DNA of 39,401 bases, from contig JAPLLU010000020.1 of NCBI GenBank assembly GCA_026387385.1, positions 1 to 39,401 of the forward strand, given 5' to 3'. The position numbers were made by a program, and so were the translations under genes. The notes below the pieces were generated by a model. The model did no database searches. It had not been told where the DNA came from and saw only the letters and a list, made by a program, of their open reading frames with translations. The DNA is from Candidatus Omnitrophota bacterium (GTDB taxonomy: Bacteria; Omnitrophota; Gorgyraeia; Gygaellales; Profunditerraquicolaceae). Shown here one piece after another: positions 5,825 through 17,488 of this stretch. The stretch's first letter is position 1; each line of letters begins with the position of its first letter.

Positions 5825-5850
5825 TTTAACCCTCCCTATATTATATGTTT

Positions 5851-5913
5851 AGTCCACAGTCCACTGACCACAGTCCACAGTTTTCTGTGGACTGTTGACT
5901 GTCGTCTGTCGAC
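5851..5913. repeat. Heptad word array B: 9 x 7 nt, inverted pair in the same phase
   Basis: agtccac|agtccac|tgaccac|agtccac|agttttc|tgtggac|tgttgac|tgtcgtc|tgtcgac; contains the perfect stem ACAGTCCACAG-TTTT-CTGTGGACTGT. Confidence 0.85.
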
Positions 5914-5926
5914 TATCTTTTTAGCA

Positions 5927-6321
5927 GGGCAGGCAGAATAAGCCGAGTTCTGTTTTGGATGCGAATATCCGCTTCCTTTATGGTCATTTCTCTTAGCTCT
6001 GATATTACTATCAGAATCATGCAGCCTACCCGAGACTTTTTCCCGCCGAAGCGGTCCTCCCGCAAAATGCGGGAACCGGGACGGGCATCCCTCATCTCCT
6101 ATTCGGCCTTACTCCACGTAGAGATTGTCTCGTTTCACCCCCGACAAGTTAATGCCGGGCTCGTCTCTGTGACTCTGATCCGCCCTGAACTTTAAAATTC
6201 AGGTGGTGGGCGTTACCCACTACGTTGCCCTAAAGGAGCTCGGACTTTCCTCCCCACACTACTTTCGCAATCAGCATATGCTAATTGAAGTTGGTGTGGG
6301 GCGACCACTTTCTACCTGCCC
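5927..6321 (-). ncRNA. rnpB: RNase P RNA, bacterial A-like
   Basis: Minus strand reads GGGCAGGTAGAAAGTGGTCGC...GGAGGAAAGTCCGAGCTCC...ACAGAACTCGGCTTATTCTGCCTGCCC. 12-bp terminal P1 helix (GGGCAGGTAGAA/TTCTGCCTGCCC); P4-type pairing CCGAG/CTCGG is consistent. Confidence 0.93.
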
Positions 6322-7493: not shown

Positions 7494-7535
7494 ATTATTG
7501 AGTTAATCATAAAATTAAATCACTACTTATTGCAT

Positions 7536-7590
7536 GGTGGGCGATAGAGGATTCCTGCCTGCCGGCAGGCAGGCGGACCTCTGACCTCTA
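7536..7590 (-). pseudogene. Partial 3'-end copy of tRNA-Val interrupted in the T loop by a 20-bp palindrome
   Basis: ggtgggcgatagaggattc | ctgcctgccggcaggcaggc | ggacctctgacctcta versus intact ggtgggcgatagaggattc | ggacctctgacttcta at 7620-7654. Confidence 0.88.
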
Positions 7591-7621
7591 AATTAGAGTC
7601 ACCCAATTATATCAGTTCTGG

Positions 7622-7695
7622 TGGGCGATAGAGGATTCGGACCTCTGACTTCTACAATGTGAATGTAGCGCTCTAACCAACTGAGCCAATCGCCC
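7622..7695 (-). tRNA. tRNA-Val (anticodon CAC)
   Basis: GGGCGAT TG GCTC AGTTGGTTA GAGC G CTACA TTCACAT TGTAG AAGTC AGAGG TCCGAAT CCTCT ATCGCCC A; all stems pair. Confidence 0.92.
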
Positions 7696-7728
7696 GCTTA
7701 CCTTATCCGCTATAAGATTGGCGAACGC

Positions 7729-7823
7729 CTCTAACCAACGACGAGTAATGCGTTTTACGCATTACGAGGAGCCCCGCAATCTTATTTAGTTAAGACTGAA
7801 TGCGGGGCTGAAGCCAATCGCCC
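7729..7823 (-). pseudogene. Partial 5'-end copy of tRNA-Val interrupted in the D loop by a two-hairpin insert
   Basis: cctctaaccaac [~70 nt insert] tgaagccaatcgccc versus intact ctctaaccaac|tgagccaatcgccc. Insert contains GTAATGCG-tttta-CGCATTAC and AGCCCCGCA...TGCGGGGCT hairpins. Confidence 0.8.
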
Positions 7824-7827
7824 TTTT

Positions 7828-7876
7828 GGTTAATGGTTATGGGTTAATCGATTAACGAATAACTACTAACGATTAA
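7828..7876. repeat. Heptad word array C: 7 x 7 nt, inverted pair
   Basis: ggttaat|ggttatg|ggttaat|cgattaa|cgaataa|ctactaa|cgattaa. Confidence 0.82.
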
Positions 7877-7883
7877 CCAATCG

Positions 7884-7929
7884 CTGGGCCCACAGGGATT
7901 CCTGCCTGCCGGCAGGCAGGCGAACCCCG
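7884..7929 (-). pseudogene. Partial 3'-end copy of tRNA-Ile2 interrupted in the T loop by the same 20-bp palindrome
   Basis: ctgggcccacagggattc | ctgcctgccggcaggcaggc | gaaccccg versus intact ctgggcccacagggattc | gaaccccg at 7955-7980. Confidence 0.88.
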
Positions 7930-7955: not shown

Positions 7956-8028
7956 TGGGCCCACAGGGATTCGAACCCCGGACCAAGTGATTATGAGTCA
8001 CCTGCTCTAACCACTGAGCTATGGGCCC
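7956..8028 (-). tRNA. tRNA-Ile2 (CAT anticodon, presumed lysidine-modified)
   Basis: GGGCCCA TA GCTC AGTGGTTA GAGC A GGTGA CTCATAA TCACT TGGTC CGGGG TTCGAAT CCCTG TGGGCCC A; anticodon loop CTCATAA and D-arm resemble ileX-type tRNA-Ile2 rather than tRNA-Met. Confidence 0.9.
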
Positions 8029-8048
8029 CAAAATCTACGTTTTTACCA

Positions 8049-8122
8049 CCCCATAGCGAATCTCTGCGAAGCCCTACCATTGCTTTCCATGTCCAAGGGC
8101 GAAGCAGGAGAGCTATGGGCCC
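8049..8122 (-). pseudogene. Partial 5'-end copy of tRNA-Ile2 joined to an imperfect hairpin element
   Basis: gagctatgggccc shared with intact tRNA 5' end (8016-8028). Adjoining element ctctgcgaagccct...agggcgaagcaggag with outer CCATAGC/GCTATGG inverted repeat. Confidence 0.65.
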
Positions 8123-8141
8123 GTCTAATTTTTTGTTTACT

Positions 8142-8174
8142 GGCCCAATGGTGAGCTTGTCGAACCATGGGCCT
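8142..8174. repeat. Hairpin element GGCCCAATGGTGAGCTTGTCGAACCATGGGCC
   Basis: Arms ggcccaatggt / accatgggcc pair with one bulge; loop gagcttgtcga. Confidence 0.75.
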
Positions 8175-15066: not shown

Positions 15067-15250
15067 CTTGCAACCTGAATCCTGCAGCTTGCAGCCTGAA
15101 GCCTGCATCCTGCAGCTTTCTTCTGCCACCCAACTCCCAACTCATAACTCCCTGCCTGCCGGCAGGCAGGCAAACTCCTAACTAAACTTGCAGCCTGTAA
15201 CTTGTAGCATGTGGCCTGCTGAAGCCTGCATCCTGAATCATGCAGCTTGA
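15067..15250. repeat. Heptad word array E (two words, cctgcag-like and aactccc-like) with a 20-bp palindrome embedded
   Basis: cttgcaa|cctgaat|cctgcag|cttgcag|cctgaag|cctgcat|cctgcag|...|ccaactc|ccaactc|ataactc|[palindrome 15151-15170]|caaactc|ctaacta|aacttgc|agcctgt|aacttgt|agcatgt|... Confidence 0.88.
15151..15170. repeat. 20-bp perfect palindrome (copy 4 of 4), inside array E
   Basis: cctgcctgccggcaggcagg. Confidence 0.97.
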
Positions 15251-15253
15251 ATT

Positions 15254-17488
15254 CTACCTTCTATTCGCAACTACTAATAATCCCAAACTCCCCAATTTCA
15301 GTGCAACTATAACCATACAGGTATTAAAAAGCCCCAATATAGGCAAAAATATTATCCCGCCAAAAATTGCCGCCACCCAGCCGCCGATCAAGTCAGAGCC
15401 ATAAAGCAGGCCTACCGTAGCGCCTACCTTATCGCTTTCTTTTGAGTAAATTTTAGCTGCTAAAGGAAACTCTAAGCCCATCAGAAGGCCGGAAATAAAA
15501 AACAACAAAAGGAATATTAAAAATGTAAATCCAGTGTGGCTGCTAATCTCAAGTATTATAATTGCGATAAGGAAAGAAAAAATAATTACCCCGGCTTCTA
15601 AGCTGATAAGCCATTTTATCCTGTTTTTAATTTTCTCTATTCTTCGGCTCATAAAAATACTTCCCCCTGCTATACCCGCCATAAAAACGCTGATCAACAT
15701 TCCTATCGCGTAATATAAATAACCGTAAACTACCTGGAAACTGAATATCAAAACCAAATTTATCAGCATACCGAAAAAACCGGTTGTAGCTATACAATAG
15801 GCAATGCTAAACTTTGACTGCTCTTGTTTGTGGCGAAAGAAAATAACTGTGAGCGCAAATATGGCTAAAAGAATTACCTTCAAATTTAAACTTCCTAATA
15901 TCTCTAGAATATTTGCCAGTTTTGGAGTGAATTGTTTATTCCACAAAATCAGCATCTGGTATACTGCAAAAGGCGTATAGTCTTTATTGATTTTTTTTGT
16001 CGCACCTACGGATGATTTTATAAACCACTCAAGCCATCTTTTATCTAACCTGTAATCCAAGTAAGACGGAATAAGGATATTAGTTTTAATATTGCGCTCG
16101 AGCATTCTCTCCGTTATTAAATCAGGGCTAACTTTAAGCATAGACTCATCATTTGAGGCCAAATAAATATTATAATCTCCCGGGATAATCCGCACATAAC
16201 TGTAAGTATCCTTAAGTGCATTTAATACGCTAAAATTAAGGTCTCTTAGTTGCTTGCTTAGGTAAGTTAATGAGCCGGGTAGCCACAGTGCCAATATCCC
16301 CCCTGGACTTAACTTCTTTTCTGCCAAAGAAAAGAACTCTTGGGTAAAAAGGCGGTTGCTGGATAAATCAGAAGGATTAGATACCCCGATTAAAACTAAA
16401 TCATATTTATTAGGAGTGGCTTTAACAAAGAACCTGGCGTCACCATATTTAATGTTCACCCTGTTATCACTTAACTCCCTGTTGGTTAAATCCGTAGGAT
16501 ATTTTTTTAGCATTTTAATCATCGTTGGGTCGAGCTCTGCGTAATCAATACTCTTTAGGGGATACTTAAGCATTTCATTAATCAATCCCCCTGCCCCTGC
16601 GCTTAAGATAAGCGCGTCTTTAGGTTCAGGATGAAATAACAAAGGTAGATTTCCGAATTCCTCTACAAAGGTTATATCCGGATACGGCGCAGTAATTACG
16701 GGTGTGCCGTTATGGAAAAAAGTATACTGCCCTTCTTTTTTAACCACCGCGATGTTTCCGTAAACAGAATTACGGTAATCTAAAACCTCTTGCATCCCCA
16801 ATTGCTTTTTTACAGAAAAACGTTGAATTTTATCCGAATTTCCGCTTAAAAATATAAAAAACACTAAGGCAATAAGAACTAAATATTTTAAGAAGGCAGT
16901 ATTTTTTTGTAGCGAGTTAAAGAAAAACAAACAAGTGGCAAGATTAGCTATAACTATTATAAAGGCGATCTGAAAAGAAGTTAGATACGGAATAAATAGA
17001 TAAGTCAGGATTACGCCGCCGATAATTGTTCCGATAGTCTCCAAGGCATATACTCTTCCAATCGGACTCAAGGGACGGGGTAAAGAAAACAATTTAGTGA
17101 GTGTGCTGAATAATGCCCCGTGGCAAAACCCCGGGAGTAAGATAACAAAAAACGAAACCCAGAATATTGCAGGAATCCCTATCCCCTCCCCAAACGGAAT
17201 TCCTAATACACTCTTAAAGGCGCGCGATAGATAAACGGATAACGGCAGGGAAATTGAAAATGCTATCTGCAAGATAAAAAACAGGCTTATTTTATTTTTA
17301 ATCTTATCAATGGCCTTACCAACAAGATAAACTCCTGAAGCTTCCAGAATGACCCAATTAGCTAAAATTATGCCCAAAATCAATTCATTGCCGTAAAAAC
17401 TTACCAGGAGTTCGCGCAAGATTAAGACCTGCGCCACTATCCCGCTTGCTCCTATGGTTATAATTGCAAAAACAAAAATATGATTCAT
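15254..17488 (-). CDS. Fused membrane transporter-like / spermidine synthase-like SAM-binding protein
   Basis: N-terminal TM helices, central ALILSAGAGGLINEMLKYPLKSIDYAELDPTMIKML...YDLVLIG, C-terminal TM helices. Confidence 0.78.
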   Translation of the reverse strand: MNHIFVFAIITIGASGIVAQVLILRELLVSFYGNELILGIILANWVILEASGVYLVGKAIDKIKNKISLFFILQIAFSISLPLSVYLSRAFKSVLGIPFGEGIGIPAIFWVSFFVILLPGFCHGALFSTLTKLFSLPRPLSPIGRVYALETIGTIIGGVILTYLFIPYLTSFQIAFIIVIANLATCLFFFNSLQKNTAFLKYLVLIALVFFIFLSGNSDKIQRFSVKKQLGMQEVLDYRNSVYGNIAVVKKEGQYTFFHNGTPVITAPYPDITFVEEFGNLPLLFHPEPKDALILSAGAGGLINEMLKYPLKSIDYAELDPTMIKMLKKYPTDLTNRELSDNRVNIKYGDARFFVKATPNKYDLVLIGVSNPSDLSSNRLFTQEFFSLAEKKLSPGGILALWLPGSLTYLSKQLRDLNFSVLNALKDTYSYVRIIPGDYNIYLASNDESMLKVSPDLITERMLERNIKTNILIPSYLDYRLDKRWLEWFIKSSVGATKKINKDYTPFAVYQMLILWNKQFTPKLANILEILGSLNLKVILLAIFALTVIFFRHKQEQSKFSIAYCIATTGFFGMLINLVLIFSFQVVYGYLYYAIGMLISVFMAGIAGGSIFMSRRIEKIKNRIKWLISLEAGVIIFSFLIAIIILEISSHTGFTFLIFLLLFFISGLLMGLEFPLAAKIYSKESDKVGATVGLLYGSDLIGGWVAAIFGGIIFLPILGLFNTCMVIVALKLGSLGLLVVANRR

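Follow-up and report, generated by a model that had tools for sequence, protein, structure and literature searches.

A probably mobile 20-bp palindrome, identical in distant bacterial phyla, interrupts tRNA relics and other sequences

Introduction

Two broken tRNA genes that lie close together in an Omnitrophota genome are interrupted by the same short palindrome at the same position of the T loop. Why should one sequence occupy one structural position of two different tRNAs, and does it belong to tRNAs at all? The initial annotation of this locus proposed site-directed insertion. Here, the palindrome, denoted P, is followed from the window, that is, the whole stretch of 39,401 nt that was analyzed, to other genomes, and its sites are compared. 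P reads CCTGCCTGCCGGCAGGCAGG, is a perfect palindrome of 20 bp, and occurs in four exact copies in the window; the shuffled window sequence contained no match. The copies and the tRNA-derived features around them are collected in Table 1.

Results

Two tRNA fragments are interrupted at one T-loop position

On the tRNA strand, the junctions read GGTCCG^AATCC in the Val fragment and GGGTTCG^AATCC in the Met (CAU) fragment, which confirms that P lies in the T loop of both relics, between C56 and G57 or between G57 and A58. The one-base ambiguity is genuine, and the coordinates first assigned were correct within one base. When P is removed and the flanks are joined, both relics return to the uninterrupted tRNA sequence, so that the gain is exactly 20 bp with no duplication and no loss, in agreement with the initial annotation. 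The Val 3' fragment corresponds to nt 42 to 77 of the intact gene (97% identity over 36 nt), and the Met 3' fragment corresponds to nt 49 to 73 (100% identity over 25 nt). The intact siblings do adjoin their fragments, as had been noted. The two fragments derive from different tRNAs, and their outer flanks are unrelated. An origin as one duplicated block, which the initial annotation had named as one of the findings that would speak against targeting, therefore does not apply, and the claim that P was inserted twice, separately, at the same position of a tRNA holds.

Table 1. Copies of P and tRNA-derived features in the window
Feature	Positions	Strand	Basis or remark
P copy in AT-rich word array, adjoining aminotransferase-like ORF 1158-2243	1125-1144	none	
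tRNA-Val 3' fragment with P inserted, located downstream of intact tRNA-Val	7535-7590	-	nt 42-77 of the intact gene
P copy in T loop of the tRNA-Val 3' fragment	7554-7573	none	
Intact tRNA-Val(CAC)	7619-7695	-	
tRNA-Val 5' fragment (nt 1-12 and 15-25)	7729-7823	-	D loop split by 72-nt compound hairpin (7740-7811)
tRNA-Met(CAU)/Ile2 3' fragment (nt 49-73), interrupted by P	7885-7929	-	
P copy in T loop of the tRNA-Met/Ile2 3' fragment	7901-7920	none	
Intact CAU-anticodon tRNA (Met or Ile2)	7956-8028	-	ARAGORN: Met
tRNA-Met 5' fragment (nt 1-13, then GTGGT)	8045-8122	-	D loop split by ~60-nt hairpin (8050-8109); part after the insert is 5 nt only
P copy in AACTCC word array	15151-15170	none	

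Both window tRNAs also have an upstream 5' fragment with a larger hairpin in the D loop, which the initial annotation did not include. The hairpins of these Val and Met 5' relics are followed or ended by TTCG and an inverted copy of approximately tRNA nt 4 to 11. A similar plan was seen at a tRNA-Lys (L056) and a tRNA-Arg (L061).

The window contains other repetitive sequences. Degenerate low-complexity word arrays at 15067-15258 and 1030-1120 (CTTGCAGCCTGAAGCC; TTTTAGTTTTGAG) have copies of P in or beside them. At 8140-8172, GGTTCGACAAGCTCACC lies within a GGCCCA/TGGGCC palindrome, presumably a motif of the intergenic repeats of many phyla. A large imperfect palindrome of CAGTCCAC words at 5850-5915 adjoins the RNase P RNA gene (5925-6319).

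P is dispersed across phyla but patchy among close relatives

The genome that contains the window (G000; 1.57 Mb, 98% complete) has 41 exact copies of P and 64 places with one to three mismatches, that is, 105 places with at most three mismatches; one mismatched variant recurs several times. A control search with the reversed pattern gave 0 matches. Exact P was present in 31 of the 59 genomes of a search among relatives and in 92 of the 292 genomes of the phylum, and within a single genus (g216) the number of copies ranged from 0 to 20, with 20 in G140 and none in G063, G076, G118, and G122. When one genome per species was scanned, exact P was found in at least 120 stretches. The phyla among the matches listed are Patescibacteria, Omnitrophota, Bacteroidota, Nitrospirota, Elusimicrobia, Planctomycetes, Verrucomicrobia, and Chloroflexi, and the cultured isolates among them include Winogradskyella, Salegentibacter, and Longitalea. 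The presence of P in cultured isolates shows that it is not a MAG artifact and rules out an origin in sequencing or assembly. Carriage by phages was also rejected, given that just 33 stretches with P were found among the 2.9 million viral contigs of IMG/VR. Neither P nor the peptides LPAGRQ, PACRQAG, and CLPAGR appeared in the literature searched, which includes few subscription journals.

Most insertions are blunt, and junction preferences vary between lineages

In total, 330 distinct P sites were collected across genomes. The copies in G000 are mostly found in AT-rich word arrays, for example, TTTTT^CGCTTT and AACTC^CAAACTC, and in other repeats; word arrays also contain P in G295. In other genomes, P lies within the REP-like palindromes of the respective genome (G017, TGTAGGGACAGG...CCTGTCCCTACA; G204; G136). 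P is even nested in P, at CCTGCCTGCCG^GCAGGCAGG, in three genomes (L087, L307, and L007, where the host copy is degenerate). Some copies may have spread within larger repeats (G140 and G194).

For 40 sites, a copy of both 13-nt flanks without P was available in the same genome sample. At 31 of these paralogous empty sites, the gap between the flanks was exactly 0, indicating that P is usually gained blunt, without duplication; the remainder consisted mainly of simple or repetitive sequence. An AdoCbl riboswitch was the single orthologous locus for which congeners were compared, and there the difference exceeds a clean 20 bp.

Two leader-like contexts were observed in G194. At L360:1397-1525, P is the last hairpin of a weak match to the AdoCbl riboswitch (37 bits, below the gathering threshold), and the congeneric L371 has no P there. 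In addition, five copies of a leader-like repeat (L356, L363, L365, L367, and L369) include P as one arm (CCGCGC...GCGCG-P-GGT.GCCC). This repeat had no Rfam match at E values up to 1 and is possibly a new RNA or repeat family.

The most frequent junction tetramer was TT|CG both in G000 (4 of 24 de-duplicated sites, 0.17 expected) and in G136 (3 of 15 sites, 0.16 expected). Each value is the most extreme among many tetramers, without correction, and the count for G000 includes the sites of the window itself. The commonest junction in the cross-phylum set was A^T. Junction preference thus varies between lineages, which may reflect several histories or enzymes. Targeting of hairpin loops, an idea suggested by the tRNA loops and by the nesting of P in P, was dropped as a general rule because two tests at 316 sites revealed no clear overall excess: the junction fell in a loop at 54 sites (0.17, compared with 0.167 in controls), and the stem score reached an overall z of 1.9, raised mainly in G017 and G204.

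tRNA relics are a recurrent but not a specific target

P was counted 15 times in tRNA-derived, non-intact stretches; two of these were the sites of the window, which recur in an overlapping locus, leaving 13 distinct sites, whereas the proportion of these loci that such stretches occupy predicts 0.44. In this control, all positions of the loci count equally, coding DNA included, and the excess is therefore due in part to avoidance of genes; with a fivefold correction, the expectation becomes approximately 2 by arithmetic estimate. Weaker tRNA matches add about 7 sites. In the alignments, which were read by eye, the interruptions are located in or at the edge of loops, namely, the T loop, the D loop, one anticodon loop, and one variable loop. 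Wherever an intact gene is part of the locus, P-bearing 5' relics lie upstream of it and 3' relics downstream, on the same strand. Relics without P also exist, and P is therefore not needed to make relics.

Two further observations concern tRNA genes. For 80 tRNA genes of the loci, matches to the gene within its own flanks were predominantly upstream copies of 5' parts (24) and downstream copies of 3' parts (18); if such a match reaches a mature tRNA end, it mostly terminates at that end or a few bases from it. A viral contig carries an otherwise complete tRNA-Met whose variable loop contains P (L284:2239-2330), and L263 holds a shortened relative; none of the other tRNAs detected by ARAGORN contained P or was restored by deletion of P.

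The initial proposal of tRNA- or T-loop-directed insertion accordingly stands only in part. The loops of tRNA relics are a recurrent, overrepresented target, but P is specific neither to tRNAs nor to T loops: only 4 of the 41 copies in G000 are tRNA-like (T loops of Val and Met, D-loop regions of Gln and Arg), and the rest are located mainly in arrays and repeats, with two in frame in genes. The T loop of most tRNAs contains TTCG. Given that G000 prefers TT^CG, the coincidence in the window requires no tRNA-specific enzyme; it fits a local junction preference combined with tolerance of insertions in expendable relics.

P is also found in frame in conserved genes

P has no stop codon in any frame. 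In G000, chorismate synthase (L036) and an ETF alpha/ferredoxin protein (L008) each contain a 7-residue insert with LPAGRQ that is absent from the solved homologs (1q1l and 6fah, respectively). LPAGRQ is also encoded by further frames through P, which, as read from sequence, are presumably those of RecG, PrmC, and valyl-tRNA synthetase. In FabD (L212), the insert region aligns with scattered gaps and shows no clean 7-residue gap. An in-frame insert of 7 residues amounts to a net gain of 21 nt, and the exact length of 20 bp is thus not universal among insertions; in genes, selection would keep only multiples of three.

Discussion

P is dispersed, patchy between close relatives, and inserted in tRNA relics, in other palindromes, in itself, and in coding frames. 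The initial annotation raised a RAYT-like option, under which P would be a REP or REPIN moved by a Y1 transposase (RAYT, TnpA-REP) via a single-stranded DNA hairpin. P is indeed a short palindrome without target duplication that often lies within REP-like palindromes, and Y1 transposases are common in the relatives (47 of 59 genomes). However, G000, the genome richest in P and 98% complete, had 0 matches to PF01797, and over the 59 genomes the number of Y1 genes is uncorrelated with that of P (Spearman rho, 0.01; p, 0.93). Furthermore, P is fully symmetric, lacks a GTAG or CGTC tag, and forms single palindromes rather than REPIN doublets, which makes this option very improbable. Movement of P through reverse transcription of an RNA hairpin and insertion of the product, a route reportedly proposed for the small dispersed repeats of cyanobacteria, appears improbable as well. 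In RNA folds of the relics, P is a stable hairpin, and it occurs in RNA-structured sequences (tRNA relics and one riboswitch), but an RVT_1 reverse transcriptase is missing from G000 and from 48 of the 59 genomes searched. Compensatory stem variation was not seen either: 0 of 14 two-mismatch variants had changes at paired positions compared with 0.7 expected, a weak test. With both absent from the richest genome, the Y1 transposase and the RVT_1 reverse transcriptase were discarded as drivers.

A tyrosine recombinase that directs P specifically to tRNA T loops in an att-like manner would explain why four T-loop sites (two in the window, L081, and L202) agree in position within one base. Yet clear tRNA-like sequence accounts for only about 4% of P sites, mostly D loops, and the insert is 20 bp long, without an integrase gene or a visible att core; the distribution of the other copies largely refutes such an enzyme, which is scarcely credible. 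A possible, if somewhat unlikely, account does without a dedicated transposase: P would be filler from the repair of DNA breaks or from template switching where forks stall, and structured tRNA DNA would be a hot spot. The gains are blunt and without duplication, the 5' relics lie upstream and the 3' relics downstream of the intact gene, as slippage or partial duplication predicts, and other hairpins occupy the same D-loop positions; conversely, filler does not account for one exact 20-mer across phyla.

Because Y1 does not track P, RVT_1 is absent, and the two-mismatch variants are uncompensated, blunt insertion that is trans-acting or linked to repair is favored. Judged from sequence comparison, P is probably a non-autonomous, recently mobile 20-bp palindrome, letter-identical in distant bacterial phyla and among the smallest mobile DNAs. 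A trans-acting activity would insert P where DNA is broken or single stranded, with a preference for certain short junctions, such as TT^CG in the G000 lineage. Selection would then leave it where it is least harmful, that is, in tRNA relics over working tRNAs, in intergenic arrays, and in tolerated protein loops. The T-loop sites of the window would be two events of this kind: TTCG, which is near-universal in T loops, would supply the preferred junction, and the adjoining intact gene would make each relic expendable. A more far-reaching reading, tentative and on balance unlikely, is that P is a cross-phylum selfish element without an enzyme of its own, for which a widely conserved host activity performs both the copying and the blunt insertion. 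Conserved proteins would then repeatedly have acquired an LPAGRQ-containing peptide from P, and tRNA relics and riboswitch leaders would have acquired new hairpins.

If mobile, P is about as small as mobile DNA can be. Conserved proteins gain one and the same peptide from it, and RNA-derived sequences gain hairpins, so that P bears on how small inserts enter genes. The copies are exact, and congeneric species differ widely in how many they have, which would permit a direct search for the insertion rules and the enzyme.

Comparison with known elements

Several known elements share features with P. The PstI palindromes of Neurospora mitochondria are GC-rich, 18 nt long, and often near tRNA genes; they differ from P in sequence and in belonging to fungal mitochondria. 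From classical ISs and MITEs, P is distinguished by the lack of target-site duplication, as seen at the empty sites. The small dispersed repeats (SDRs) of Nostoc and relatives, reportedly described by Elhai et al. in 2008, are 21 to 27 nt long, form hairpins, are nested in themselves and in tandem word arrays, and are confined to a cyanobacterial subgroup. P is likewise dispersed, self-nesting, and present in arrays, and its 20 nt fall one below the SDR range; it is set apart by being a perfect palindrome, by its cross-phylum occurrence, and by its in-frame copies in genes.

REP and REPIN elements, which are associated with RAYT transposases (PMC3116915, where SDRs are also mentioned), resemble P as dispersed palindromes of 20 to 40 bp that are sometimes located inside other palindromes. 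REPs fall into GTAG and CGTC families and are sometimes inserted within other palindromes (PMC3733652). The flanks of the 41 G000 copies and of 128 other copies of P, in contrast, contain no constant tag, GTAG and CGTC included, and inverted doublets are absent, the 41 copies being scattered with the closest pair of starts 347 bp apart; nor does P follow the Y1 transposase. Rickettsia palindromic elements (RPEs) occur between genes, in frame in conserved protein genes, and in the RNA genes for tmRNA and M1 RNA, but are 105 to 146 bp long and Rickettsia specific; for the RPE in guanylate kinase, enzyme activity has been compared in the presence and absence of the insert (PMC2229807). P resembles the RPEs and their Wolbachia equivalents in its 7-residue in-frame inserts in conserved genes and in its insertion into RNA-derived sequence, and differs in its length of 20 bp. 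It is also the same in many phyla, whereas RPEs, SDRs, and REPs are lineage bound. On the best reading, P works like the RPEs and the cyanobacterial SDRs and, by length and taxonomic range, is a member of neither.
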